Assembly: GCF_040515995.1 (NCBI RefSeq)
Contig: NZ_CP159485.1
Location: 1,798,001 to 1,862,000, forward strand
DNA from: Proteinivorax hydrogeniformans
GTDB lineage: Bacteria; Bacillota; Proteinivoracia; Proteinivoracales; Proteinivoracaceae
Direction: 5' to 3'
DNA: 64,000 bases
The position numbers and the translations under genes are program-made. Of this stretch, positions 3,797 through 60,613 are shown piece after piece; position 1 is the stretch's first letter; each line of letters starts with the position of its first letter. The notes beneath the pieces were generated by a model. The model was given only the letters and a program-made list of their open reading frames with translations. It was not told the DNA's origin and searched no databases.

Positions 3797-4288
3797 TTAC
3801 TTATCTACGTCAATAGACTGAGCTGAAATGATTTCAACTTCTTTTTCAGGTTGTGGATTTCTGAGTTTAAAATCTATTCTACTCTTATATAGATACCATA
3901 AGGAAACAGGCATTATAATAAAAATAGAAATCAGCACAAAAGCAATCCCTACCGGTGTTACTTGATCTATAAAGTGTTCAAGCGGAAAGTTTCCTATGAT
4001 AATGCTAAAAATATTATTACCTGCATGTATTAAAATGGGAGCCCATATAGATCCAGTCCATACAAGAGATAACCCTAAAAATAGTCCCATCACCGTAGTG
4101 TAAACACCTTGAGCTATATTCATATGATAGACCCCAAATACAACCGCTTGTATTATTATAACAGATTTAAGCGAAATTTTTCCTTCCAGTTCATCAAATA
4201 TCAGTCCTCTAAAAATAATCTCTTCAAAAAGTGGAGCCGCCACTCCTACAGCAATAAAAAGAAGTACCCCACTACCTAAAAGCCCCAT
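3797..4288 (-). CDS. C-terminal fragment of amber-interrupted CPBP protease
   Basis: This part contains the full catalytic core: EEIIFRG (motif 1), FGVYH (motif 2) and HAGNN (motif 3), followed by helices and an acidic tail. The ATG at 4288 has no Shine-Dalgarno site, and homology to the paralogues continues upstream of it, so it is a fragment of the longer gene and not an independent start. Confidence 0.6.
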   Translation of the reverse strand: MGLLGSGVLLFIAVGVAAPLFEEIIFRGLIFDELEGKISLKSVIIIQAVVFGVYHMNIAQGVYTTVMGLFLGLSLVWTGSIWAPILIHAGNNIFSIIIGNFPLEHFIDQVTPVGIAFVLISIFIIMPVSLWYLYKSRIDFKLRNPQPEKEVEIISAQSIDVDK

Positions 4289-4318
4289 ATTATCAACATG
4301 ACTTTCTAGCGTCTGGGG

Positions 4319-4693
4319 CTATATTATAGTCACTAATTTTAGTAGCACTAAACTTAATGAAACACACCCCATACCTGCAAGGAAAGAAGCAACGCTTTTT
4401 TGCCAAGATATTTTATTAAATCTACAAACCTCGTATAGGTTGCGCCCCCGTCTTTTCATCAACCACTTATAAATAAAAAACGATATTATTCCTCCAAAAA
4501 TTACTGATAGTGCTACATTTTTCGATATAAGTTCTATTAACATCTGCTCATAAAAAGTACCACGTTGAGCTGCTCGTGCTATGAAGTAAATACCTATAGT
4601 AAATCCTGCTACCAGTGAGTACACAAATACTGCTAACACATTAACTAATAATATCTTTATTATGTTCCACGATGTCCTTAATCCCTTATTCAT
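4319..4693 (-). CDS. N-terminal fragment of amber-interrupted CPBP protease
   Basis: This 124-residue open frame has a good Shine-Dalgarno site and holds two or three membrane helices upstream of the protease core. Without the part after the TAG it lacks all three CPBP motifs and cannot be active alone. Confidence 0.6.
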   Translation of the reverse strand: MNKGLRTSWNIIKILLVNVLAVFVYSLVAGFTIGIYFIARAAQRGTFYEQMLIELISKNVALSVIFGGIISFFIYKWLMKRRGRNLYEVCRFNKISWQKSVASFLAGMGCVSLSLVLLKLVTII

Positions 4694-4895: not shown

Positions 4896-6074
4896 TTACT
4901 CAAAAGTCCCTTTAACTAAGATTTCCTTTTCTTTTACAAGGGTTTTACCTTTTGATATAACTGTTTCTATTTCGCAGGTAGGTTTATCCACAATAGTAAT
5001 ATCTGCATCTTTTCCTTTGCTTAGCTCCCCTTTATCTTTCAGTCCATAAGCCACAGCTGGATTTTTGGTTATTGTGGATATGGCTTTTTCTATAGGAACA
5101 TCTTCCTTTAAAATAGCTTCTTTAACTTCCTGGTATAAAGATTTAACTCCTCCTACCTTTAACCCTAGATACTCCCCTGATTCAGAAAAGTTTGGCAAGC
5201 TTCCCTGCCCATCTGAAGAAAGTGTTAAATTATCGAAGGGAATATTCTGTTCGTGTATTAATCTTAACGCACGGGAGCATTTTACCTCTCCACTTTCTAA
5301 AAACTTTTTTATAGTACTTGTGGTAAGATCTAAAAAACCACCATGTTTCATAAACTTTAGCCCTTCGTTAAATACTTCCTCTTTTCTATTGCCATGGGTA
5401 GCAATAAAGTGAGAAGGTGGAATTTCTGTTTCATTAATAACTTTCCAAATATCTTCAAACATTTTTCGCCCATCTCCTAGATGAACGTTAACTGCTCCTT
5501 TTTTGCCCGATAACATCGCTGAGACTCTGACTTCAGCTACCAGTTTTTTAAGTTCAGATATCGAGGGTTCAAAGGACCTGTGATCAGATAGCGCTATTTC
5601 CCCTACTCCTAGTACCTCAGGGATCAAAATAATATCCTTTTCCACCTCGCCGGTCAAGGTGACAACAGGTATTTTATAAGAGCCTGATAAAATATATGCT
5701 GTGATACCTTCTTCATTTAAAACTCTAGCTTTTGCTAAAAGATCAGTCATATTCCTTGTAAAACCATCGGTGCCTAAACATCCAATCACCGTTGTTATAC
5801 CAGCTGTGGTGATGTCAGTAAGCTGAATTTCGGGGGTGCGGGTGGCAAAACCACCTTCGCCACCCCCACCTGTTATGTGTACATGCCCATCTATAAAACC
5901 GGGGAATACATATTTACCTCGAGCATCTATTACTTCTACCAGTTCGTTATTTTCTATCTCACCTAGGCTTATTTCATCTTTTATGCAAGCAACCTTACCA
6001 CCAACTGTTAAAATGTCCTTTTGTCCTAATTTTTCAGGAGAGTATACCTCCCCACCTTTTACTAAAGTTATCAT
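4896..6074 (-). CDS. iadA: Isoaspartyl dipeptidase (beta-aspartyl-peptidase)
   Basis: A 392-residue amidohydrolase that cleaves isoaspartyl dipeptides formed from aged proteins and diets of peptides. It has the two-zinc signature GFIDGHVHITGGGGEGGF, the bridging-residue and ligand region near VNVHLGDG and FIATHGN, and the catalytic Asp in LSSDGQGSLP. Length and order agree with the IadA family. The start ATG 6074 has AAAGGGG upstream. It follows the YfcC-family transporter by 40 bp and ends in a terminator, so the two form one operon, preceded by a -24/-12 promoter and the gene for a sigma-54 activator. The set suggests uptake and hydrolysis of a small peptide or Asp derivative under dedicated control. 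Confidence 0.93.
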   Translation of the reverse strand: MITLVKGGEVYSPEKLGQKDILTVGGKVACIKDEISLGEIENNELVEVIDARGKYVFPGFIDGHVHITGGGGEGGFATRTPEIQLTDITTAGITTVIGCLGTDGFTRNMTDLLAKARVLNEEGITAYILSGSYKIPVVTLTGEVEKDIILIPEVLGVGEIALSDHRSFEPSISELKKLVAEVRVSAMLSGKKGAVNVHLGDGRKMFEDIWKVINETEIPPSHFIATHGNRKEEVFNEGLKFMKHGGFLDLTTSTIKKFLESGEVKCSRALRLIHEQNIPFDNLTLSSDGQGSLPNFSESGEYLGLKVGGVKSLYQEVKEAILKEDVPIEKAISTITKNPAVAYGLKDKGELSKGKDADITIVDKPTCEIETVISKGKTLVKEKEILVKGTFE

Positions 6075-6114
6075 AACAAGTTCCCCTTTCTATAGCCACT
6101 TCTATCAATCTATC

Positions 6115-7617
6115 TTACTGTAATCCCAAAATAACTGCCGCTATAATACTTATTGATCCCATTATAAATAATAAAATCTGGAACTTAATAATAAACTTTA
6201 CCCATTTACTCCAGTCTAGGCGAGCAACTGCTAATACACCCATCAAAGAAGCTGACGTAGGAACAATCATGTTTGTAAACCCATCACCTAATTGATAAGC
6301 TAATACAGCTACCTGTCTTGATACACCTACTAAGTCTGCAAGAGGAGCCATTAATGGCATAACAAGAGCTGCCTGACCCGAACCGGAAACTACGAAAAAG
6401 TTAAATACAGATTGGAAAACATACATAAACCAAGCAGAAAGTGTAGCAGGCAGTGCCCCTATAGTACCTCCTACCCAATTTAGCATAGTATTTAGCACAG
6501 TTCCACTTTCTGGATCTGTTCCACCTAAAACTAAGATAATTCCTTGTGCCATTCCCACAACCATTGCAGCGCCAACTAGATCTTGAACACCAACTCTAAA
6601 TGACTGAGCAATATCGTTAACTCCCATATCATTTAGCTTGAAAATAACACCTATAATACCACAAATAAGCCCCATTGTGAAAAACTGGGTAGCTAACTCT
6701 GGAATATAGTATGCATGCTTTACTACACCCCATATAATCCAAACAATACCTGCCGCCATCGTCAGCAAGACCAGACCATGTCCAAGCTTAAACTCTTCTA
6801 TGTTTTGATCACCTTCAGCGCTTTCTGGGCTTTTATGGTGAAGTTGGTCAGTCTTGTAAGCTAAAGAACTGCGTGGGTCGGCTTTTATCTTTTTAGCATA
6901 AGAGTATACATAAGCTATACCAACTGTTGTAAATATTGCCCATAACACCATTCTAAATCCTGCACCAGAGTACACCGGCACTTCTGCAACCCCTTGCGCT
7001 ATCGCAACCCCAAACGGGTTCATCCACGAGGTAGCAAATCCAATTTGTGTTGCGACATAGGTTATACATATTCCTACAATTGAGTCATAGCCCATAGCTA
7101 CCATTATAGGTATTACTATCATCGCAAAAGCCATTGCTTCTTCACTCATCCCAAAAATTGCTCCACCTAAAGAAAATAAGAAAAACATAACAGGGATGAT
7201 TAAAACTTCTCTACCTTTAGTTCTTTTAATCGTAGCTAAAATACCTGCATTTACAGCCCCTGTTCTTAAAATAATCCCGAAGGAGCCTCCGATAACTAGT
7301 ATAAACGCAACGATTCCTACGGCTGCGCCCCATTTACTTCCTGTAACAAGCCCTTCAAATACATAATTTAAGAAACCTACACCACCAAAGGGTTCAAAAA
7401 TTGAAATCCCCTCTCGAACCTTATTTCCATCTTCGTCAAGAACATATTCGAAAGATTCAGGATCAACCACAGTTCTTGTGTCGTCTAACTCTTCAACAGT
7501 CACCTCTCTTGTCTCAAATGTCCCTGTAGGGATAATAAAGGTTAACAGAGCAGCTGCTAACACCACAAAGAAAATAATTACATAAGTGTCTGGAGCCTTA
7601 AACTTAGGTTTTGACAT
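6115..7617 (-). CDS. YfcC-family (C4-dicarboxylate/basic amino acid antiporter superfamily) permease
   Basis: A 500-residue integral membrane protein with about 12-13 helices. The N-terminus FKAPDTYVIIFFVVLAAALL, the long extracytoplasmic loop after helix 1 (GTFETREV...), the FGMSEEAMAF segment and the C-terminal SGSGQAALVMPLMAPLAD and NMIVPTSASLMG motifs are typical of YfcC/DcuC-like carriers, which move amino acids, short peptides or dicarboxylates. The exact substrate cannot be read from sequence; linkage to iadA suggests an isoaspartyl or other dipeptide, or aspartate. GGGAGGG precedes ATG 7617. It is the first gene after a putative sigma-54 promoter. Confidence 0.85.
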   Translation of the reverse strand: MSKPKFKAPDTYVIIFFVVLAAALLTFIIPTGTFETREVTVEELDDTRTVVDPESFEYVLDEDGNKVREGISIFEPFGGVGFLNYVFEGLVTGSKWGAAVGIVAFILVIGGSFGIILRTGAVNAGILATIKRTKGREVLIIPVMFFLFSLGGAIFGMSEEAMAFAMIVIPIMVAMGYDSIVGICITYVATQIGFATSWMNPFGVAIAQGVAEVPVYSGAGFRMVLWAIFTTVGIAYVYSYAKKIKADPRSSLAYKTDQLHHKSPESAEGDQNIEEFKLGHGLVLLTMAAGIVWIIWGVVKHAYYIPELATQFFTMGLICGIIGVIFKLNDMGVNDIAQSFRVGVQDLVGAAMVVGMAQGIILVLGGTDPESGTVLNTMLNWVGGTIGALPATLSAWFMYVFQSVFNFFVVSGSGQAALVMPLMAPLADLVGVSRQVAVLAYQLGDGFTNMIVPTSASLMGVLAVARLDWSKWVKFIIKFQILLFIMGSISIIAAVILGLQ

Positions 7618-7659
7618 TTAACACCCTCCCAATTGATAGTTTTAATCATATTTCTTTAA

Positions 7660-7675
7660 TGCACAAACTGTGCCA
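7660..7675 (-). promoter_or_regulatory. Sigma-54 (-24/-12) promoter of the yfcC-iadA operon
   Basis: The minus strand reads TGGCACAGTTTGTGCA. It has GG and GC at the required 10-bp separation and differs from the consensus TGGCAC-N5-TTGCA at one core base. The start would lie about 33 nt before the yfcC ATG. The gene directly upstream encodes a GAFTGA-type activator. Two direct copies of TGGTTGCCA (7779-7787, 7800-7808) are spaced 21 bp and could be part of an activator site. Confidence 0.65.
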
Positions 7676-7792
7676 ACTTTGCAACTTGACTAAAAATTAT
7701 CTAAAAAGGCCAGTGACAGTTTCTTCAGACAATTCTTTTTGTTCTGTTAAGCACTGCTTGGTAATTTTACGGTTGTTTTGGTTGCCAAGTTG

Positions 7793-9850
7793 TTAACCCT
7801 GGTTGCCATCGATAACCTTTTTACCTTTTTTGGTTAAAACACTTCCGCTACCTTTACTCTTGAGAATATATCCTTTTTTCTCTAACCTGTCCAAAATTGT
7901 TCGAATCTTACCTTCCGTCAAGTAAATAGAACTTTGTTTGCTTAGCTCTGACAGTATCTTTCTTCCCGCTGTTTTGTTTTCTTCCTTCAAATCATAAATA
8001 CACTGCAATATAAAAAGTTCGCTGTCAGAAAGAGCATCTTTTAAGTTTATCTCCTCCTGTTCTTCTATTTTGGGACCTTCTTCAAAATAACCCCAGGACG
8101 GAACATCGTCTATGGTTAGGTGGTTACAATCACGAAGTGCCAACATATAGCTAACTAAGTTTCTAAGCTCCCTTACATTTCCAGGCCAATCATAGTTTTG
8201 CAAAGCTAAAATCACCTCTTTATCTACGGTGATTTTTTCTGTGGTTTCTGTGTCAATAAGCTGGTTAAACAGCTCAGAGATATCCTCCTTTCTCTGTCTT
8301 AAAGGAGGGATTTTCATATAACCCATTTTTAGCCTATAATATAAGTCTTTTCTAAACTGTCCCTGCTTCATAAGCATCTTTAAATCTTGATTTGTTGCAG
8401 CAATTATTCTAACATTTACCGGCCTAATTTTGGTATCTCCTATGCGCATTACCTCTTTTTCTTGTAAAACCCTTAAAAGTTTAGCTTGTACCTTAAGCGA
8501 GCTATCCCCTATTTCATCTAAAAATATGGTTCCTCCTTCAGCTTGCTCAAAAAGTCCAAGTTTTCCTTTTTTCGAGGCTCCGGTAAAGGCTCCTGGTTCA
8601 TAGCCAAACAGCTCACTTTCTATAAGATCGTCTGATAAGGAGCTAAAGTTTACTGCTAAAAAAGGTGCATCACCCATAGGAGATGAATTATGGATTGCAC
8701 TCGCAAATAACTCTTTACCTGTTCCGCTTTCCCCATGTAACAAAATAGTGAGCTCCGTTTTTGCCAGCTTTTTAGCGATGTTTTTGGTCTGATTCATTAA
8801 CGAACTTTCTCCTACTATATTCTCAAAGGTGTATTTTGCAAAATGTCCCTGCTTAATGTTTTCCTTTTCTTTATATTCGACGCTATTTTTATGGCTTAAA
8901 AAACGAGCGACAATATGATCGTTATCAGTTAATTTAAATTTAGAAACTAAAACTTTATCACTATTAATATCCAAAGTTAGTTCATCATCTAAACGATGAT
9001 TCATTAAGAATTCAACAAGCTTTTTGTTATAAATTAGTTCACTAATCTTAACGCCTCGTAAGTTCAAAGCAGGTATATCTAACATTTTTCTAAACTTTTC
9101 ATTATGTACACTGATTATTCCGCGGGAGTCAAAAACCACTAGACCGTCTTCTATACCGTCAATAACAGTAGTTAGGTGGTGATTAAGTTCCGATATGTAA
9201 TTAGTAGAGTGGGATAGTTTCTTTGCAAGAATAATGATCTTTTGTATATATTTTATTGAAAAATGTCTCGCTCTAGTTTCCAATTGACCAACCGCTCTTA
9301 AAAGTTTAAAGATAGTGGGAAAATCTAAAAGTCTCGGCCCGATATCATACACCTTACGAATATGATCTAAAACCTTGTCTTTTTCCCCAGGTGTTATGGC
9401 AATATCAGTGTCTTTAGTGATTTTTGACTTTTCACAATTACTCAAACCTGGATAATATGGGTAAAGATCTAAGTGGTCTATTCCCACTTCTTTTAAAGCT
9501 CTAATCCCTTCTTCAGCTGATTCTTTTGCATCACTTACAAAAAGCACCTTAGTCTTCGGTGATAGCAACACTATCCGATCAATAAACTCATAGTTTATTG
9601 TCCTATCGGCAATAATGATTTGCACTCCTTTAGGTATCATACAATTCCAGTCTTCTTCGAGCTCTCTTTTAACTAGTGAGCTTGAAAATAGCACAACATC
9701 TCCGAAATCTGAAGGAGGTTTGCTTATACCATCTAATGGGTAAGCTTGAATAGTAACACATGTAGGAATATATTCTTCTAATTGAACTTTTAAAGCATTG
9801 CAGGTTCCAACTGAACCAGTTATTAAAGTTAACTTTCTGCAAACTTGCAT
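7793..9850 (-). CDS. Sigma-54-dependent transcriptional activator with PAS and AAA+ domains
   Basis: A 685-residue bacterial enhancer-binding protein. Residues 1-200 hold a sensory region that resembles the PrpR/receiver-like N-domains. A PAS-like domain follows at about 225-320 (DGIEDGLVVFDSRGIISVHN). The AAA+ domain begins at about 340, with Walker A GESGTGKE (373-380) and the sigma-54-contacting loop GAFTGA (420-425). The C-terminus lacks the usual FIS-type helix-turn-helix; instead residues 600-685 look like a winged helix (LTEGKIRTILDRLEKKGYIL). AGGAGTG precedes ATG 9850. It sits directly upstream of a -24/-12 promoter, so control of the yfcC-iadA operon is the natural inference. The inducer is unknown. 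Confidence 0.9.
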   Translation of the reverse strand: MQVCRKLTLITGSVGTCNALKVQLEEYIPTCVTIQAYPLDGISKPPSDFGDVVLFSSSLVKRELEEDWNCMIPKGVQIIIADRTINYEFIDRIVLLSPKTKVLFVSDAKESAEEGIRALKEVGIDHLDLYPYYPGLSNCEKSKITKDTDIAITPGEKDKVLDHIRKVYDIGPRLLDFPTIFKLLRAVGQLETRARHFSIKYIQKIIILAKKLSHSTNYISELNHHLTTVIDGIEDGLVVFDSRGIISVHNEKFRKMLDIPALNLRGVKISELIYNKKLVEFLMNHRLDDELTLDINSDKVLVSKFKLTDNDHIVARFLSHKNSVEYKEKENIKQGHFAKYTFENIVGESSLMNQTKNIAKKLAKTELTILLHGESGTGKELFASAIHNSSPMGDAPFLAVNFSSLSDDLIESELFGYEPGAFTGASKKGKLGLFEQAEGGTIFLDEIGDSSLKVQAKLLRVLQEKEVMRIGDTKIRPVNVRIIAATNQDLKMLMKQGQFRKDLYYRLKMGYMKIPPLRQRKEDISELFNQLIDTETTEKITVDKEVILALQNYDWPGNVRELRNLVSYMLALRDCNHLTIDDVPSWGYFEEGPKIEEQEEINLKDALSDSELFILQCIYDLKEENKTAGRKILSELSKQSSIYLTEGKIRTILDRLEKKGYILKSKGSGSVLTKKGKKVIDGNQG

Positions 9851-9871: not shown

Positions 9872-10561
9872 CTAATTTTTTTTAATAACAGCATTTAACC
9901 ATTTTTCTCCTTCTTTATTCGCTCTTAAGTCTCTAGTTGTTTTTATCTCTAAAAAATTAAGCTCCGAAAAACTTGATAGCATCCAGCGCAGGTTTTCTTC
10001 AGTAAAATCAGTAAAGTACCTTCCATCACAACTATCTCGAACACCTTCAAATTCTCCGTATTTGAAGGAAACGTATAGACAACCTCCCGACTTTAAAGCT
10101 AGCGAAAGCTTTTTAAAAATATCATATAGCTCTACAGATGGCACGTGAAGCAAGGATGCATTTGCCCAGATATCGTCAAATTTATCTTTTTCATCAAGCT
10201 CATGAAAATTTTTGCAGATAACCCTTTGACCTATGTTTTTACTTGCTATCTCACACATTTTCTTAGAACCATCCATAGCTGTAACTTTGTAACATTTTTC
10301 TAAAAATGCCTTGCTATCACGTCCCGCTCCACAGCCTAAGTCTAAAATATGAGCTCCTGATTTTAAGTTCTTTAAAAACATATTACGCTGATTTTCAAAA
10401 TCAATATTTAAAGTTTCTGAGCTAAACTCCTCTGCTCTTTGATTATAGTAATCGATAGTTTTTTGGTGAATTATTGCTGAGCTACAATAATCCAATGTTT
10501 CGTTACCTATTAGAAGATTGGTCAAAGGCAACTCTTTTTTTATATAAATACCCAAAACCAA
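9872..10561 (-). CDS. SAM-dependent methyltransferase part of frameshifted fusion
   Basis: A class I methyltransferase domain with motif I ILDLGCGAGRDSKAF and the conserved ASLLHVPSVELYDIFKK and GGCLYVSFKYGEFEG segments. It ends EKWLNAVIKKN, almost the same as EKWLNAVLKIN in the intact fusion. It overlaps the CPBP frame by 59 bp. The first codon is TTG without a Shine-Dalgarno site, and the first residues before about position 30 are only a shifted reading of the CPBP tail. It could be made only by slippage or weak reinitiation. Confidence 0.65.
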   Translation of the reverse strand: MVLGIYIKKELPLTNLLIGNETLDYCSSAIIHQKTIDYYNQRAEEFSSETLNIDFENQRNMFLKNLKSGAHILDLGCGAGRDSKAFLEKCYKVTAMDGSKKMCEIASKNIGQRVICKNFHELDEKDKFDDIWANASLLHVPSVELYDIFKKLSLALKSGGCLYVSFKYGEFEGVRDSCDGRYFTDFTEENLRWMLSSFSELNFLEIKTTRDLRANKEGEKWLNAVIKKN

Positions 10562-11042
10562 ATGGCAGTAGAATTAAAACAGAAAACAAAAATATAGCTC
10601 CATTAACTTGGTGATTATGCTGTAAAAAGTAGCCTAAAGAAGAAGCTGTTAAAGTGGTGCTATATATATTATTTCCAGCATGAATTAAGACCGGGGCCCA
10701 GATTGAGCCAGTCCATACCAGTGATACCCCTAAAAAAACTCCCACCATCGCAGCATATGCACCTTGTACTATACTCATGTGATATACCCCAAATAAAATA
10801 GCTTGAATTAAAACAACATTCTTTAATGATACTACTTTTTTTAGATTATTAAAAATTAGTCCCCTAAACATTATCTCTTCTATAAATGGAGCAGCTATCC
10901 CTATGCTCAGTAAAAGTAGTAAAAAGTTACCTTGATCTAATACTGACATTTTATCTATATGTAGTTCCACTAATCCTGGAAATCCCATATCAATAACCAT
11001 TATTAAAATACCACTAATATAAAACAGCGCTATACCTAACAA
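10503..11042 (-). CDS. CPBP protease core fragment of frameshifted fusion
   Basis: This 179-codon frame keeps all three CPBP motifs (EEIMFRG, FGVYH, HAGNN) and the following helices up to YLYKKRVAF, where the intact fusion enters its methyltransferase linker. It then shifts out of frame at the A7 tract 10535-10541 and ends after DQSSNR. Its first codon is TTG with no ribosome site. Confidence 0.6.
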   Translation of the reverse strand: MLGIALFYISGILIMVIDMGFPGLVELHIDKMSVLDQGNFLLLLLSIGIAAPFIEEIMFRGLIFNNLKKVVSLKNVVLIQAILFGVYHMSIVQGAYAAMVGVFLGVSLVWTGSIWAPVLIHAGNNIYSTTLTASSLGYFLQHNHQVNGAIFLFSVLILLPFGFGYLYKKRVAFDQSSNR

Positions 11043-11077
11043 AAACGAAACAACAGCTTTTTGCCAAGATAGAGGCT

Positions 11078-11320
11078 TTATCCTACACTCTTCTTTGATA
11101 CTGCGTTTTTTTGTTCTATCATCGATTTATAAATAAAAAATGCCCCAACAGCACCTACTATTACCGATATTTGTATATGGCTACCTAAAAAAGAACTATC
11201 ATCTAATGTAGTGCCGCCATGATAGATTAAACCAAGTATTTTGAAATATGCAATCATCACCCCGGTATGTATTAGCATTATTGCGAGAGCATACCAGCCC
11301 GATTTTAAAAAATTCTTCAA
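11078..11320 (-). CDS. N-terminal membrane fragment of frameshifted CPBP-methyltransferase fusion
   Basis: An 80-codon frame starting with TTG at 11320 after GGGGGAG. It contains two membrane helices equivalent to the first helices of the intact paralogue, then leaves the homologous frame at the A7 tract 11106-11112 and stops after KKSVG. Confidence 0.55.
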   Translation of the reverse strand: MKNFLKSGWYALAIMLIHTGVMIAYFKILGLIYHGGTTLDDSSFLGSHIQISVIVGAVGAFFIYKSMIEQKNAVSKKSVG

Positions 11321-11407
11321 AAAACTCCCCCTAAATTAAGATAATCCATTCTTTATTTTTCGACCTAATAACATAAAATTCCTTCCCCCGATGATAAGTA
11401 GTTGATG

Positions 11408-33080: not shown

Positions 33081-36000
33081 CTAGGCTTTCTTCAGAACAA
33101 ATCTAGCTCCAACTGCTATTGAAATTAGCCCTAGAAGTAGGAAATAAACATAGCCTCTTTGACCGGTCTGTGGTAGCTTTTCAGACTCCTTAGGATCGGC
33201 TGGATCTTGTGGATCCTCTGGATCAACTGGGTCCTCTGGATCAACTGGGTCCTCTGGGTCTTCTGGATCCTCTGGGTCCTCTGGAGCTACAACAGTAATC
33301 GTTCCCATTGCAATTCCAGTGGCTCTATTTCCAGCTACATCATAAAGCTCAACCTCTACTGCGGCTCCATCAACCACCAGTCCTCCAGGCACTACCCATG
33401 TTCCTTGATATAGACCAGGTTCTACTTCAGTCATAGGAGTTCCTAGTGTTGTATTAAGATTTTCTCCTGTTGGCAATAAAATTCTAAAGGATGCAATTCC
33501 TCCTTTTTTATCACTGGTGAAGGAGATTGTTACTTCTTCTCCAGCTTCAACAGTTATATCTTCAGAAGGCTGAATGTCAGTTATTGTTGGAAGTACTGTA
33601 TCTACTGTTACTGTTACTTCCTTTACGGTTTCATTTCCAGCTAAATCTGTAGCTCTGATTGTAATTAAGTTTTCACCTTCTTCTAGTATCAGTCTTGTAC
33701 TGAAGCTTCCATCTTCGATAGTTGCTTCTTCTCCGTTAACTGTTACTATATCAAGGTTATCGTCTTCTACAGTTCCCGCTACTGTTACCACTTCTTTATT
33801 GGTTATAAAACCATCTGCAGGAGATTCTATTACAACTTCTGGTGCTACAGTATCCTTAACTACTTTTATAGGAGCTGAAGGATCAGTTTCACCAACTTCA
33901 ACCACTGAAGTGGCAGTTATAATGTTCTCCCCTTCTTCAAGTTGGATTTCTACATTAAACTCTCCATCTTCAGTTTCTACTTCTTCTGCAATTAGTTCGC
34001 CATTATTATAAATATTAACTTTACAGTCAACATCAACTGTTCCAGATACCATTACAGTATCTTCGTTAGTGTAAGTCTGATCTTCAGGACTTGATATTAC
34101 AGGAGCATCTAAGCTATAAGCAACTTCTGCTCTTAGCATGATATTTCCGTAACTGGAATCAAGTTGTTCAAAAACACCGTCTATTACCATATACGAGCGG
34201 TTAGCAAAAGGTCCATCTTCATCCATACCTATACCCGGAGTATTTGGACTATCGCCTACCTGAACCATCACTATAAAGAAGTCTCTATCTGTGGAAAACC
34301 CATACGATGATAGGTCAACATGATTCCATTGTCCTCTGACTCCTTCTACTTCTACAGGACTAATTACCATTTCACCAGGTTCACCATTTGGTAAGCTGTC
34401 GTAAACCGCTACCGAAAATGTGTCGGCACCAGGGTCTGGCCAGTCAGTATCCCATAGATAAACATTAGCACCAGTTACTTGAGCATAACCATCAGGTGTC
34501 ATTCTCATGGCCCATCCATTACCGGCATCAAAGAATGCTCTGGCGTTTTCTGCAGTTCCATTATCATACGCTATTTCTTCGTTGAAACCAATAAATGGGC
34601 TTAGCTCAACTGTTACCTCAGTAGTTTCATCCCCCACTACTTCTACTTCCACTTCTTCTAAAATGTAGTCAGCTGCGCCAACTTGTAGTGAGTACTCGCC
34701 CTCTAAAATATCAGGCATTACGAAATTCCCTTCTTCATCCGTAGTAGCTGAAGGTATTCTAGAGTCGCCAATTAGATTGATCTTTGCATCTTCAATTGGT
34801 TCTCCAGTCCTTTGATTTACTACTTGACCCTCAATTATGCCCTGTGGTATTTGATCTAGGATGAAGTCTTGAGTTATTTCATCACCGTCATTAAGCTCAA
34901 CGGTAGCTGTTTGACTGTAGTATCCATAGGCCTCAACCTTTACAGTCCATGGTTCGTCATCTTCGCTAGCAGCATGGATTAGACGATAGGATCCATCTGC
35001 TGGATTAGTTCTTACACTTCTTCCAGTTTCAACTATGGTAACTACTGCATCTAGAGGTAGCCCTGTTACGTCGGTAATCTCGTTGTCAACAGATACCTCG
35101 TAATCATAGTTTTCTGGATCTTGTTGAAGTTTCAGATCTATCGTTCTACTTTCTGGTTTGTTAGTTTTATCGCTTTGTTCTTCTACAGTTGATACTGTTG
35201 AAATTTGTGGTGCATCTGAACTAGAAATCATCACATCATCAACATACCAACCAGGAGCGGTTACAGATCCATCTGATTCCATGACAAATCTCAACTTGAT
35301 AGTTTCGTCAACATAATCATTTAGACTAATATTGACATTATCCCATCCACCAAAATTACCTGTATAGGTAGCTAATTCATCCCAAGTTTCGCCACCATCT
35401 GCAGATATTCTCACAAATGCGTTATCATAGCTATTTTCACAGTTAAACCAGTGATAGAAGGATAAGTCTGCAGTAGTATGACCTGTCAAATCAATTTCAG
35501 GACTCTCTATCCAGCTATCAGTATTGTTTGGATAGTCTCCATCTAAGTTTGTAGCCCAAACATTACTACCTGAGAATGCGCTAGCAGGTCCTGAAGTTGG
35601 CACTCCCCACTCCCAACTATTATTTGCTCCATCTGCTATCCAGCCACCATCATCTTCTTCGAAGTCTGAGGCATAAATTATTGTAAAGTATGGAGCGGTT
35701 GCTGAAGCTTCATTTGAGTAACCGCTTTCATTATTAGAAAAGTCATAGGCAGTTACCACATAATAATAGTCTTCACCAGCTTCAAAGTCCGTATCTGTAA
35801 AGGTAGTACTTGTGCTAGAGTCGATTAAAACATATTCCCCACCTGCTGTCTCTGAGCGATAGATATTATAACCTGCCACATCAGGATCAGTGGGAGCGGT
35901 CCAATTTAGCGTAATACCTGTGGAGTGGGTATTAGCTTCTAAATCAGTAGGCTCTCCTGGAGGGTCTGTATCTACACCTACAAGCTCTACATTATCTAAA

Positions 36001-38318
36001 TACCATCCTGGGTAATTCACTGAACCGTCGGAGAAGAAGCCAAATATTACGAATACTGGATTTGGTGAATAAGCGTAATCATTTAGATTGATAAACATAT
36101 TTCTCCATTCAGCATCTCTACCGGTATATTCACCTACGATATCCCAGGTTAAACCGAAGTCATCAGATACCGCCACTATACCCTCATCGAAATTATTTTC
36201 TATATCGTACCAGTGATTTAGTCTTACAGATGCTTCACTAGCATCTCTTAAGTCCAATGGAGGCATAAGCATTTGGCTATCGGAGTTATCAGAGTAGTTA
36301 CCAAATGGGTTTGTTGCAATTACTTTATCACCTACAACTGGTTCTGGGCCAACAGTAGGCTCTCCCCAATCCCAGTCACCATCTAAAACCCATCCAATTG
36401 GGAATTCAGAAAAGTCAGTGTGATATTCATCTGGTACTATTCCAAACATAACCTCGACATCAAAAAGATCAGTTTCATCTAAGTTTTGCCCAAAGTCATA
36501 GGCTCTTATTTGGTATTGGAATCCAGGCTTTTCGATGAACATATAGGGGATTGACCCTGAATATATTCCGTCCTTGTGATCTCCAGATATGCGATCCATT
36601 GGAGCCATTACCCAATGGTCATCTCCAGCTGATTTTATCCAAAGCTCAACCTTAGTTACAGCTACATCGTCTGTAACATGAGCTTCGATAGGAATAGATA
36701 AGCCAGAGAAGGCCTCTTCAATTGGTTCGTGCTCTATAACTGGAGGTTCAGTGTCTAAACCTTCCCTTAGTACCGAACCTTCAATTACACCACGGCCAGT
36801 AGCGATAGATGCCACAGCATCAAAAGCGTTTACAAGGCCATGACCGTAACCATAGTTCGGTGCCTCAGGATATTGACTATCTGTCAAAGGAGTTGCAGTT
36901 TCCATCATTATATCCTCTAGTTCGTCAGGGGTTAAGCTGGCATCTAGAGAAAGTAGTAGGGCTGCGGTTCCAGCTACAGCAGGAGCTGACATGGATGTTC
37001 CACTCCATCCAGCCTCATAACCTCCAGGTACCGATGAACGAATATTAGCACCAGGGGCTGATATATCAGGTTTTAGGTCATCTGGATAGGGTCCAGGACC
37101 TTGATTGGAGAAGTTAGCCCGTCTATCACTAATATCCGTTGCACCTATCGCGAAACTTTCAGGATAATTTGAAGGTGCACTTACAGATCCTGGGGAAGAA
37201 CCACCAGAGGTGTTACCTGCAGAAAATACTGGTAGTATCCCAGCTGCCCGCCAGTTTTCCACCATAGGACGATACCATTCATTTAAGCCAGGTCCTCCAC
37301 CCCATGAATTATTAACTATATCCGGAGCAAGGGCAGGATCATCATTAGGAGCTAACATGAATTCGCCTGCTGCTAACAAGTGTGCTTGGCTTCCGCCACT
37401 TTCTGTGAACGCTCTTGCTGCTATCCATTGTGCACCAGGGGCAACCCCTATTTTGTTAGCACCTTCTGGGTCTTGACCTAAGATGGTACCCATAACATGA
37501 GATCCATGGGGAGAACTAGCCAAGTCATAAGGCATCGAACGCCCTTCAACTGCATCAAACCAGTTTCCTTCTGGATTTGGGTTGCTGGGATCATCGGGAT
37601 CAAAACCACGCCACTTATCTCTAAGGGCTTCATGTTCCCAATGTACACCGCTGTCTATTATACCAACTACTGCTCCCGTTCCTTCGAGACCATAGGTATC
37701 CCAAACAGCAGGGGCACCTACTCTATCGATATTCCATTCTACATTATCTATGGTGTTATTTGCTTTTTGCACCGGGTCTACTTCTGGCCATTCTACTTCT
37801 ATATGCTGGTTAATATCTATTTTGTATATTTCATGTCTTTTTGCTAAGTTTTCTATTACATTTTTATTGGCCTTAACATAAAGAACATTCATGATATAGA
37901 AGCTTTCATATTCTTCTACATTACCCTCAAGCTGTTCCTGTTCTAAATAGCTCAGGATTTCTTTTTGGGTCTCTTGTGCTGTTTGTCTTAACGCATCTAC
38001 AACCGCAAACCTGCTGGCCATCTTCTTTTCGTAGGCTGTTGCATCTTTAGCTAAGTTATTTACTGCATTTTTTGCAACTTCTTTTGAATCAACTTGTTCT
38101 TGCATTTCTACAATAACTTCCACCATTTCTTTATCAGCTATTGTTTCTTCAACAGCAGAACTAATCTTCTCTGCTGGAGGCCTTTGATCATTCATAGAAA
38201 CGGTTAGTGGATTCTTGGTGTTCTCTTGGGCGTAAGCATTTACAGAAGCGAAAGGAGATAACATCATACAAATAATCATTAGGACTATCAGATAGCTCTT
38301 CGTGTCTCTAATCTTCAT
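33081..38318 (-). CDS. Very large LPQTG-anchored subtilisin-like (S8) protease, bacillopeptidase F type
   Basis: A 1745-residue secreted protease. Signal peptide 1-30; inhibitor-I9-like prodomain about 60-175; S8 catalytic domain about 190-500 with Asp222 (GIIDSGVHWEH), His271 (SSPHGSHVMG) and Ser442 (GTSMSAPAVAG). Then come two immune-inhibitor-A/MAM-like modules (WYLDNVELVG, WYVDDVMISS) around a fibronectin III domain, two carboxypeptidase-regulatory-like domains, a further beta module, two Ig-like repeats (APEVVIESPADGFITNKEVV), a Pro-Glu-Asp wall-spanning repeat and the sorting signal EKLPQTGQRG with hydrophobic tail and KK. Bacillopeptidase F shares the order but lacks sortase anchoring. 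It should supply peptides outside the cell. The adjacent sortase is its probable anchor enzyme. Confidence 0.93.
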   Translation of the reverse strand: MKIRDTKSYLIVLMIICMMLSPFASVNAYAQENTKNPLTVSMNDQRPPAEKISSAVEETIADKEMVEVIVEMQEQVDSKEVAKNAVNNLAKDATAYEKKMASRFAVVDALRQTAQETQKEILSYLEQEQLEGNVEEYESFYIMNVLYVKANKNVIENLAKRHEIYKIDINQHIEVEWPEVDPVQKANNTIDNVEWNIDRVGAPAVWDTYGLEGTGAVVGIIDSGVHWEHEALRDKWRGFDPDDPSNPNPEGNWFDAVEGRSMPYDLASSPHGSHVMGTILGQDPEGANKIGVAPGAQWIAARAFTESGGSQAHLLAAGEFMLAPNDDPALAPDIVNNSWGGGPGLNEWYRPMVENWRAAGILPVFSAGNTSGGSSPGSVSAPSNYPESFAIGATDISDRRANFSNQGPGPYPDDLKPDISAPGANIRSSVPGGYEAGWSGTSMSAPAVAGTAALLLSLDASLTPDELEDIMMETATPLTDSQYPEAPNYGYGHGLVNAFDAVASIATGRGVIEGSVLREGLDTEPPVIEHEPIEEAFSGLSIPIEAHVTDDVAVTKVELWIKSAGDDHWVMAPMDRISGDHKDGIYSGSIPYMFIEKPGFQYQIRAYDFGQNLDETDLFDVEVMFGIVPDEYHTDFSEFPIGWVLDGDWDWGEPTVGPEPVVGDKVIATNPFGNYSDNSDSQMLMPPLDLRDASEASVRLNHWYDIENNFDEGIVAVSDDFGLTWDIVGEYTGRDAEWRNMFINLNDYAYSPNPVFVIFGFFSDGSVNYPGWYLDNVELVGVDTDPPGEPTDLEANTHSTGITLNWTAPTDPDVAGYNIYRSETAGGEYVLIDSSTSTTFTDTDFEAGEDYYYVVTAYDFSNNESGYSNEASATAPYFTIIYASDFEEDDGGWIADGANNSWEWGVPTSGPASAFSGSNVWATNLDGDYPNNTDSWIESPEIDLTGHTTADLSFYHWFNCENSYDNAFVRISADGGETWDELATYTGNFGGWDNVNISLNDYVDETIKLRFVMESDGSVTAPGWYVDDVMISSSDAPQISTVSTVEEQSDKTNKPESRTIDLKLQQDPENYDYEVSVDNEITDVTGLPLDAVVTIVETGRSVRTNPADGSYRLIHAASEDDEPWTVKVEAYGYYSQTATVELNDGDEITQDFILDQIPQGIIEGQVVNQRTGEPIEDAKINLIGDSRIPSATTDEEGNFVMPDILEGEYSLQVGAADYILEEVEVEVVGDETTEVTVELSPFIGFNEEIAYDNGTAENARAFFDAGNGWAMRMTPDGYAQVTGANVYLWDTDWPDPGADTFSVAVYDSLPNGEPGEMVISPVEVEGVRGQWNHVDLSSYGFSTDRDFFIVMVQVGDSPNTPGIGMDEDGPFANRSYMVIDGVFEQLDSSYGNIMLRAEVAYSLDAPVISSPEDQTYTNEDTVMVSGTVDVDCKVNIYNNGELIAEEVETEDGEFNVEIQLEEGENIITATSVVEVGETDPSAPIKVVKDTVAPEVVIESPADGFITNKEVVTVAGTVEDDNLDIVTVNGEEATIEDGSFSTRLILEEGENLITIRATDLAGNETVKEVTVTVDTVLPTITDIQPSEDITVEAGEEVTISFTSDKKGGIASFRILLPTGENLNTTLGTPMTEVEPGLYQGTWVVPGGLVVDGAAVEVELYDVAGNRATGIAMGTITVVAPEDPEDPEDPEDPVDPEDPVDPEDPQDPADPKESEKLPQTGQRGYVYFLLLGLISIAVGARFVLKKA
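33198..33287 (-). repeat. Tandem repeat coding the PED wall-spanning region
   Basis: About ten 9-bp units coding E-D-P, V-D-P or Q-D-P just before the LPQTG motif. Some blocks (TCAACTGGGTCCTCTGGA) are exactly duplicated at 18-bp spacing, so copy number could vary between strains. Confidence 0.8.
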
Positions 38319-58019: not shown

Positions 58020-58436
58020 CTAGGATAATAATTTTACTACTTCCTTATTAAATAACTCTAAATCCTTCAGGTTAGAATTGATTATATCATAAACCATTAC
58101 TCTATTTAGTTTGACATAATCATGAACCAGTATATTTCTAAAAGATGCCATATCAGAAAGGCTTTCACATAACTCTTTACTTATGATTGCATTTTCATAA
58201 AGTATTAGTATTGAATCTCTATTAGTTTCTGGCTTTCTAAATCCCATATCAGAAATAATGTGGTTACTTATATCTATTACACACTCTATGGCTAAGTGCA
58301 AAAATCTTTCGCTAGATCCGTAGATAAAAGGGTCTCCAAGATATTTATCTTTACCATATTCCCTCACTTTTTCTAAAAATTGAAGGTATTCTTTCAATTT
58401 AGCAACTTTAGTTAAAACTAAATTCTGGTTAACCAT
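58020..58436 (-). CDS. hepT: HepT-like HEPN toxin (DUF86 family)
   Basis: A 138-residue all-alpha HEPN protein. The ribonuclease motif RX4HxY is present as RNILVHDY near residue 105, which is also the tyrosine that the partner MntA AMPylates in characterised systems. ATG 58436, 7 nt after AAGGAGGGG, is preferred to GTG 58442. It lies 17 bp downstream of the mntA-like gene, in the usual antitoxin-toxin order. HepT cleaves RNA (tRNA 3' ends in one system), giving phage defence or stabilisation of DNA; this role is from the family. Confidence 0.88.
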   Translation of the reverse strand: MVNQNLVLTKVAKLKEYLQFLEKVREYGKDKYLGDPFIYGSSERFLHLAIECVIDISNHIISDMGFRKPETNRDSILILYENAIISKELCESLSDMASFRNILVHDYVKLNRVMVYDIINSNLKDLELFNKEVVKLLS

Positions 58437-58453
58437 TTCCACACCCCTCCTTA

Positions 58454-58867
58454 TTATCCTTGTATACGCTTAATCAGTGCCTTATTATAGATGTCAGAGT
58501 AATAACAAAAATCAAAATACTCCCTGAAGGTTAACGATTCAAACGATGCCCTATTAGGACTATCCTTTAATACTAATCCGCTCTTAATGACCTCATATTT
58601 AAGTTGAGGTGGCGCTGTGTGAAGAAGTACAACATCCACTCTCCTATCAAAATACTTTATGCCTAGGTCAATAATATTTCCTTTTATTAAAACTTCTTCT
58701 TTATCATTGTGTTTTTCTTTTAGTTTGAATGCTAAATCAATGTCACTTTGTCCATTAGCTCTGTCTGTAGCAAAAGACCCAAATAAATATGCAAAATCTA
58801 TAGAGTATTGTTTATGAACTTTCTTAATAAAAAGTTCTAATTGCTCGTTCAAACTTTCTCTATTCAT
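58454..58867 (-). CDS. mntA: MntA-like nucleotidyltransferase antitoxin
   Basis: A 137-residue minimal nucleotidyltransferase with the signature FAYLFGSFATDRANGQSDIDL (GSx10DxD), and a third acidic residue in RRVDVVLL. MntA neutralises HepT by adding AMP to its tyrosine. The longer open frame from 58927 is rejected because GGGTGAGAAGA directly precedes ATG 58867. It forms a two-gene operon with hepT and ends in a terminator. Confidence 0.88.
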   Translation of the reverse strand: MNRESLNEQLELFIKKVHKQYSIDFAYLFGSFATDRANGQSDIDLAFKLKEKHNDKEEVLIKGNIIDLGIKYFDRRVDVVLLHTAPPQLKYEVIKSGLVLKDSPNRASFESLTFREYFDFCYYSDIYNKALIKRIQG

Positions 58868-59023
58868 TCTTCTCACCCGTCCTTTTATAACCTCTATTAA
58901 TATTTTATTTTCTCTACTATTTCGCAAACTCCTGCTTCACCTTTACTATTTTTATAATCTAACGGTTTCTGCTATATTATTCCTTTAATATGTATAAAAA
59001 TACCACTTGTGAAAGTGATAAAA

Positions 59024-59047
59024 GCTCTAGCAAAAAATTGCTAGAGC
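59024..59047 (-). terminator. Terminator after the CPBP-methyltransferase fusion
   Basis: Perfect stem GCTCTAGCAA / TTGCTAGAGC with a 4-nt loop and a T4 tail on the minus strand, about 150 bp after the stop. The rest of the 327-bp gap holds one short open stretch (see findings). Confidence 0.7.
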
Positions 59048-59194: not shown

Positions 59195-60613
59195 TTAATT
59201 AATTTTAAGCACGGCATTTAACCATTTTTCATCCTCTCGCCCTTCTCTTAAATCAGCCGTTAATTTAATCTCGACCATCTCCCAGCTCTCATCTAGCAAA
59301 GACCGAAGGCTTTCTTCTGTCAAGTCGGTAAAGTATCTACCGCACTTTCTAATACCTTCATAATCTCCGTACTTAAACGATACATACAAATATCCTTTAG
59401 GTTTAAGTGCCACAGCAATTTTTTTAAAGATATCCTCCAATTCAGAAGATGGCACATGTAAAAGAGACGCACTTGCCCATATTCCATGAAATTCATTGAC
59501 CATATCAAGCTCATAAAACTTTTTGCAGATAACTTCTTGTTTTAAATTCTCACTAGCAATTTTACACATTTGCTTCGATCCATCAACAGCAGTAACCCTA
59601 AATCCTTTTTCCATAAAAGCCTTACTATCTCTTCCCGTTCCGCACCCCAAGTCCAAAATATGGTCACCAAAGTTTAGGTGTTTAGCAAACATATCTCTAC
59701 TTTCCTGAAGATTAATATCTATCGTATCTTTTGTGTATTTGTCGGCATTTTTATTGTAATAGTCCAAAGTCTGAAAGTGAACAATAGCAGAATTGATGTT
59801 AGCAACATCTACATCAACATCACATGGCTTAAACTTCACTCTAGTTCTAAACAAATATATCATAATAAAACCAAAAACAACGGGAAAAGCAAGCCAATAA
59901 ATATATGTATATACAACACTATCTGACATGGCTTGACCAAATGATGACAAAGAAAACACCACAGTATGAACATTATTTCCTACATGGGCCAAAATAGGCG
60001 CCCATATAGACCCTGTCCAGATTAGTAATAGTCCAAAGGTGATGCCAGCAAAAAAAGTATAAGATATTTGAGGAAGGTTTCCATGAATTAAACCAAACAA
60101 AGCAGCTTGAAATATTATTATAGTCATCAGCGACATTTTACCTTCCATTTTTTTAAATATAAGTCCCCTAAACATTACTTCCTCTATAAAGGGTGCAGCT
60201 ACACCTGTTGATAAAAATACAAGTCCAAAACGTATATCACTCATCCACGCCCAGTTTTCGTTATGGGATTCTATTGAGCCAGGGTTAATTCTTTCTAGCA
60301 AACCTAAAACAGCACTACTAGTAAAAACCCCAACCACACCAACTATAAAACATAGCACAAGTTTGTGCCAAGGAATCTTTTTAAACCTACATACCTCAGC
60401 TATCTTTCTACCCTTTAAGTGAGTAATCAAAGTATAAATTAAAAATGTAACCACTGCCGCTAAAATATAACTTATTTCAAATGCTTCAAAAAATGCAACA
60501 GTGTCCTCGCCACCAACGAAAAAAACTAGAGCTAAGTTGATTACAATTAAAATAAAATGGTAGATTAAAACAATTAAAAGTGAATACCCAAGTATGCCCA
60601 ATATTTTTCTCAT
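59195..60613 (-). CDS. CPBP intramembrane metalloprotease fused to a SAM-dependent methyltransferase
   Basis: A 472-residue fusion. Residues 1-260 are a membrane CPBP (Abi/CAAX-protease-like) protein with about eight helices and the three motifs EEVMFRG (Glu144, Glu145, Arg149), FGLIH (His177) and HVGNN (His210, Asn214). A linker at about 260-285 with an acidic DVDVDV run joins a class I methyltransferase with motif I ILDLGCGTGRDSKAF (319-333), VDGS, and ASLLHVPSSELEDIF. The methyltransferase would lie on the cytoplasmic side. CPBP proteins include bacteriocin-immunity and CAAX-processing-like enzymes; the fused activity suggests proteolysis and methylation of one substrate, as in CAAX maturation. 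This is inference. GGTGAGGGG precedes ATG 60613. It has two broken paralogues in the window. Confidence 0.88.
   Translation of the reverse strand: MRKILGILGYSLLIVLIYHFILIVINLALVFFVGGEDTVAFFEAFEISYILAAVVTFLIYTLITHLKGRKIAEVCRFKKIPWHKLVLCFIVGVVGVFTSSAVLGLLERINPGSIESHNENWAWMSDIRFGLVFLSTGVAAPFIEEVMFRGLIFKKMEGKMSLMTIIIFQAALFGLIHGNLPQISYTFFAGITFGLLLIWTGSIWAPILAHVGNNVHTVVFSLSSFGQAMSDSVVYTYIYWLAFPVVFGFIMIYLFRTRVKFKPCDVDVDVANINSAIVHFQTLDYYNKNADKYTKDTIDINLQESRDMFAKHLNFGDHILDLGCGTGRDSKAFMEKGFRVTAVDGSKQMCKIASENLKQEVICKKFYELDMVNEFHGIWASASLLHVPSSELEDIFKKIAVALKPKGYLYVSFKYGDYEGIRKCGRYFTDLTEESLRSLLDESWEMVEIKLTADLREGREDEKWLNAVLKIN

Follow-up and report, generated by a model that had tools for sequence, protein, structure and literature searches.

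A CPBP-type membrane protease domain joined to a class I methyltransferase domain in one predicted protein of the genus Proteinivorax

Introduction

Does a bacterial polypeptide that joins a membrane protease domain to a methyltransferase domain carry out two successive steps on one substrate? The question is raised by a gene of Proteinivorax hydrogeniformans that lies in a window of 64,000 nucleotides, the whole stretch of DNA analysed here. In eukaryotic CAAX processing, proteolysis and methylation of a prenylated substrate are carried out by separate proteins. A first-pass annotation of the window drew on this likeness, and proposed that the fused protein acts on a shared substrate and could belong to an undescribed modification or immunity system.

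Results

One intact gene carries both domains

The open reading frame coincided exactly with the interval given in Table 1, started with ATG and contained no internal stops; a plausible ribosome-binding sequence, AGGTGAGGGG, lies 5′ of the ATG. Pfam assigned residues 131–215 to the Rce1-like/CPBP family PF02517 (E 4e-21; 75.6 bits as compared with a cut-off of 22.4) and residues 319–407 to Methyltransf_25 (E 1e-15). The proposal that an unbroken gene encodes both domains, with all three CPBP motifs and an intact methyltransferase motif I, was thus confirmed, the motif columns being invariant in the respective alignments. The parts themselves are known; their combination is new.

Table 1. Features of the fusion gene, its surroundings and its damaged relatives (positions in the window).
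Feature	Position	Strand	Basis and remarks
CPBP–methyltransferase fusion gene, 472 aa	59195..60613	-	ORF list; Pfam; 90%-identical full-length fusion in second species (G001)
CPBP (Rce1-like) membrane domain, residues ~1–262, eight predicted membrane helices	59828..60613	-	Pfam; model helices; VIA-align
CPBP motif EExxxR (E144, E145, R149), TM4 of model	60167..60184	-	invariant columns; helix 126–156
CPBP motif FxxxH (F173, H177)	60083..60097	-	invariant columns
CPBP motif HxxxN (H210, N214), TM7 of model	59972..59986	-	invariant columns; helix 204–222
Linker, residues 263–280 (~18 residues), KPCDVDVDVANINSAIVHF region	59774..59827	-	position between the two domains
Class I SAM methyltransferase domain, residues 281–472 and stop	59195..59773	-	Pfam; model pLDDT; PDB 3e23
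SAM-binding motif I ILDLGCGTGRD, residues 319–329	59627..59659	-	invariant columns
Stem-loop, 10 bp stem, between fusion and downstream toxin–antitoxin pair	59024..59047	+	terminator-like on +; T-rich also on - side
Intact type VII HepT/MntA toxin–antitoxin pair	58020-58442 and 58454-58927		both over NCBIfam cut-offs; kept in G001
Decayed second CPBP–methyltransferase fusion, two frame breaks	9872..11330	-	frames, DNA, domains
CPBP-only paralogue with in-frame TAG	3797..4693	-	frames; G001 synteny

The membrane half resembles Rce1-like proteases

The CPBP and methyltransferase halves were aligned separately, a joint alignment having been discarded after CPBPs were mis-aligned onto methyltransferases. 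Because two separate alignments were used, the models describe each half but not the orientation of one to the other. In an alignment of 13 CPBP relatives, E144, E145, R149, F173, H177, H210 and N214 were invariant, and the fusion carries the EExxxR, FxxxH and HxxxN motifs expected of members of PF02517. The model of this half, built with CPBP relatives, consisted of eight long helices with pLDDT mostly 75–96. MmRce1 and myxosortase show the same placement of the motifs, EExxxR in TM4 and HxxxN in TM7 (PMC11980579). The top solved folds found by VIA-align were SpdC (6u0o; Z 11.2 over 211 residues) and MmRce1 (4cad; Z 9.5 over 201 residues); middling Z values can arise by chance between helical folds, yet the matches of the CPBP half were CPBP entries only. 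Model and fold matches together give this half a multi-pass membrane fold of the MmRce1 type. A search of the PDB with its sequence profile found no chain.

The fusion is thus like the CPBP/Rce1-like proteases (PF02517; MmRce1 4cad, MroQ, myxosortase MrtX) in its three motifs, eight-helix fold and TM4/TM7 placement, but differs from them by its C-terminal methyltransferase and by falling under every NCBIfam cut-off for the named subfamilies MroQ, MrtS, MrtX, MrtJ and Rv0804 (for MroQ, 43 bits as compared with a cut-off of 270). Basic residues occur in the TM2–TM3 loop (HLKGRK...RFKK) and after TM8 (RTRVKFK). The even number of helices, together with these basic segments, would place both termini of the fusion in the cytosol. 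The membrane half is predicted to be a glutamic-type intramembrane endopeptidase.

The second half is a soluble-type methyltransferase outside the ICMT family

In an alignment of 18 methyltransferases, D321, G323, G325, G327, R328 and D329 were invariant, as was D344, the acidic residue after β-2. The model of this half had pLDDT mostly >90, and its best match was PDB 3e23 (RPA2492, solved with SAM), both by sequence (phmmer E 5e-28, residues 282–452) and by fold (Foldseek E 2.8e-17). A Rossmann fold, the glycine-rich motif I, D344 and the 3e23 match identify this half as a class I SAM methyltransferase. RPA2492, itself uncharacterised, stands alone at about 200 residues, whereas in the fusion the domain is preceded by a membrane protease. 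DPPY-type and PCQ motifs of DNA methyltransferases were absent, the corresponding region reading WASASLLHVP (WAxASLLHxP family-wide), and no DNA-methyltransferase Pfam family matched the fusion. ICMT (PF04140) was absent from the Pfam matches both of the fusion and of the genome. The methyltransferase half is, as judged from its predicted fold and family matches, a soluble class I Rossmann enzyme and not a member of the multi-pass ICMT family.

Relatives of the methyltransferase accompany restriction-type enzymes

The methyltransferase half falls in an unnamed family, and proteins 42–54% identical to it were mostly separate polypeptides of ~195 aa. We sampled 47 loci; the following counts are not unbiased frequencies, because some loci were chosen for long frames and five viral loci are near-copies. 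At 15 of the 47, a SauUSI-like PLDc-DEAD helicase, matching PADLOC mREase_IV, adjoined the methyltransferase or was fused to it, often with overlapping genes. Overlapping or adjoining PLDc-helicase genes were seen across phyla, at L059, L060, L061, L062, L063, L065, L067, L137, L147 and others, and fusions at L085 and L135. A nuclease was the partner at eight loci: six HNH by similarity, one HNH_4 (L148) and one Endonuclease_NS (L064). The HNH gene lay within a few tens of bases at L087, L088, L089, L091, L012, L066 and L148, on plasmids and chromosomes. Further fusions occurred once each, to TfoX_N (L010:946-1905), a PIF1-like helicase (L134:2871-5003) and DUF1232 (L084:4656-5651, Acetoanaerobium). 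Some relatives were on plasmids or adjoined a phage integrase. No CPBP gene was found near any of the 47 free or differently fused methyltransferases.

SauUSI is a type IV enzyme that cuts DNA containing m5C or hm5C (PMC3874153), and in the passages found in a 2020 survey a MutT homologue is the only companion named for SauUSI neighbourhoods (PMC7641849). No report of the pairing with a methyltransferase was found in the literature searched. It is possible that the ~195-aa methyltransferase serves type IV restriction enzymes as a modification partner that has so far gone unreported. The fusion differs from these helicase companions in having no helicase. The methyltransferase half also gave a weak match to Mad2 of the MADS system (PADLOC mad2, E 3e-18), covering only model positions 277–422 of 492; when the flanking proteins were compared with PADLOC, no MADS match was obtained.

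The fusion is conserved in a second species

A second species of the genus (G001) encoded the same fusion end to end (residues 1–472, 90% identity) at the syntenic place, where the MntA/HepT pair, an M24 peptidase, a TetR gene and further genes were shared. The fusion is neither a chance product nor a mis-join, because the second species has it at this identity; an assembly error or a strain-only oddity, either of which would have spoken against the initial proposal, is thereby ruled out. Among ~1,250 genomes searched, a protein spanning both halves was found only in these two species. The genomes comprised 61 relatives, searched at E 1e-3, and three larger sets, searched at 1e-20 to 1e-30 (398 genomes from the phylum, 398 from the phylum to which an Alphaproteobacteria relative belongs and 391 from a Clostridia-type class). 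The phylum-, class- and outgroup-level searches returned no other CPBP–methyltransferase fusion at those thresholds, at which distant or weak fusions could have been missed. A prophage, plasmid or viral origin of the fusion was rejected; matches in phage, plasmid and viral collections covered one half only, mostly the methyltransferase.

No helicase or nuclease gene lay beside the fusion in P. hydrogeniformans or G001, so that the locus is not of the SauUSI-like type, and no conserved operon partner that might point to a substrate was present at the locus in the two species. The toxin–antitoxin pair of G001 is set off from the fusion by an ABC-F-like gene encoded on the opposite strand.

As compared with G001, overall dN/dS of the fusion was 0.21, and that of the methyltransferase half was 0.10, like neighbouring genes; synonymous divergence was ~0.3–0.5 in that half and in the neighbours. 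The constraint signal was much weaker in the membrane half (residues 41–280). No amino-acid difference between the two species fell on a CPBP catalytic residue. That the fusion retains two intact predicted active sites under purifying selection is well supported by these comparisons.

The segment encoding residues 41–280 (59774-60493) was also unusual in its synonymous divergence, about one-fifth of that seen in the methyltransferase half and the neighbours, while amino-acid divergence was equal. It showed 11.5 synonymous changes in 158 sites as compared with 38 in 112 in the methyltransferase half (p 5e-8), and 25.5 nonsynonymous against 11.5 synonymous changes, an N/S contrast with the methyltransferase half of p 0.002. 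Recent exchange of this segment between lineages followed by quicker amino-acid change, or constraint on synonymous sites, could explain the pattern, among other possible causes.

A second fusion and a CPBP-only gene are damaged

Of the two paralogues within 60 kb noted in the first-pass annotation, both proved to be related genes, but neither is intact and just one derives from a fusion. The decayed second fusion is broken near 11100, in a run of A close to the N-terminus, and at ~10500, in the linker. Its linker matches that of the intact fusion in length and in shared residues (SAIIH for SAIVH), and free methyltransferases start at the next residues, which argues that this locus once encoded a fusion. 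Programmed frameshifting was rejected as an explanation of its broken frame, because a +1 shift at the linker would not suffice and the frame would have to change again near the N-terminus; decay, or a sequencing error at the run of A, is simpler.

The methyltransferase part of the second copy was 60% identical to that of the intact fusion, and in the methyltransferase tree it was sister to the intact fusions in one clade (support 97/94). Its CPBP part was 48–51% identical to other CPBP paralogues and 38% to the fusion; the CPBP tree grouped it with those paralogues (85/89), so that a single fusion event is not proven. The CPBP tree and the identities suggest that one methyltransferase was joined to two CPBPs in separate, convergent events, although monophyly with the fusion, and hence a single origin, was not rejected (p-AU 0.09).

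The second fusion was not found at the syntenic place in G001, and the genes at 4.9–9.9 kb were likewise absent. This stretch beside the decayed copy (4896-9850) encodes an amidohydrolase, a DcuC carrier and a sigma-54 activator. At the syntenic place of the CPBP-only gene at 3.8–4.7 kb, G001 has a frameshifted remnant. In the P. hydrogeniformans genome, eight CPBP genes score above the Pfam cut-off. Besides the fusion, the genome encodes another long CPBP protein, of 509 aa (L006:1444-2970), whose N-terminal extension of ~240 hydrophobic residues has no match in Pfam.

Discussion

The comparison of sequences establishes that one predicted polypeptide holds both active sites and is conserved in two species. 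Our best reading is that it represents a genus-level fusion in which a cytosolic methyltransferase with links to defence would be carried by a membrane protease. In an ancestor of the genus, a mobile, restriction-associated gene for a ~195-aa methyltransferase may have been appended 3′ to one of several CPBP genes. The eight membrane helices would form the CPBP protease, with N and C termini facing the cytosol, and because of this topology the methyltransferase would sit at the cytosolic face, where SAM is. The CPBP half may cleave a peptide that is either membrane-bound or lipidated, and the methyltransferase may modify a substrate recruited to the membrane. These substrates may differ, and the point of the fusion would be co-localisation. 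We favour a tethered bifunctional enzyme of this kind, whose halves may act on different substrates, and rate this reading as an even call.

The analogy with CAAX maturation found no support. In eukaryotes Rce1 has the CPBP fold, as does the membrane half of the fusion, but ICMT is embedded in the membrane and belongs to a fold family other than that of the methyltransferase described here, and the genome has no ICMT match. The nearest relatives of the methyltransferase keep company with restriction-type helicases and nucleases rather than with proteases or peptide clusters, and none adjoins a CPBP gene; because the family usually travels with DNA-cutting defence enzymes, the cut-then-methylate likeness is not supported, and neither is a substrate common to both halves. 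Sequential processing, in which the CPBP half would cut and the methyltransferase would methylate the same substrate in a CAAX-like or small-modified-peptide maturation, is consistent with two intact active sites in one chain and with the weak similarity of the methyltransferase to peptide N-methyltransferases (daptide E 2e-9, cypemycin E 6e-5). We consider it quite improbable in view of the family relationships and of a locus at which no operon partner is shared, the toxin–antitoxin pair next to the fusion being set apart in G001. Still more doubtful is a two-step membrane modification enzyme in which the CPBP half would release a peptide and the methyltransferase would cap the same product, reusing a restriction companion in a phage-defence or bacteriocin-type conflict system. 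The links of the relatives to restriction enzymes lend weak, indirect support to a role in immunity.

The membrane half might instead serve only as an anchor for the methyltransferase, its protease activity irrelevant or lost in practice. The high N/S in residues 41–280 as compared with the methyltransferase half points in this direction, as do the fusion of a related methyltransferase to membrane-type DUF1232 in Acetoanaerobium and the precedent of LnsB and SpdC of Staphylococcus aureus, CPBP folds used without protease activity (PMC7387801). The CPBP catalytic residues are, however, all intact in both species and are avoided by the interspecies differences, and we regard the anchor explanation as unlikely. 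A neutral read-through fusion, in which a transposed methyltransferase gene met a CPBP gene by chance and the halves have unrelated jobs or are drifting to loss, would fit the restriction to one genus, the decay of one of two fusion copies, the several unrelated partners of the methyltransferase family and the presence of some relatives on plasmids or beside a phage integrase. Against it, the main copy is intact and in frame in two species despite the synonymous divergence between them, and the methyltransferase half is constrained, so that this explanation too carries little weight with us. The module may nevertheless be dispensable, because the intact fusion occurs in two species only and neither the second copy nor the CPBP-only neighbour is undamaged.

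If both halves of the tethered enzyme act together, a single bacterial polypeptide would perform intramembrane proteolysis and methylation, with a requirement in cis; even without joint action, a restriction-associated methyltransferase would have been moved onto the membrane. The fusion also drew attention to the widespread pairing of this methyltransferase with SauUSI-like helicases and HNH nucleases, the chemistry of which is apparently unexplained in the literature searched.

Other features of the window

The stem-loop downstream of the fusion gene is only suggestive of a terminator; two stem-loops were counted, as compared with a mean of 1.7 after shuffling. Elsewhere in the window, 33081-38318 encodes a 1745-aa subtilase with MAM-like, carboxypeptidase-regulatory and Ig-like domains.
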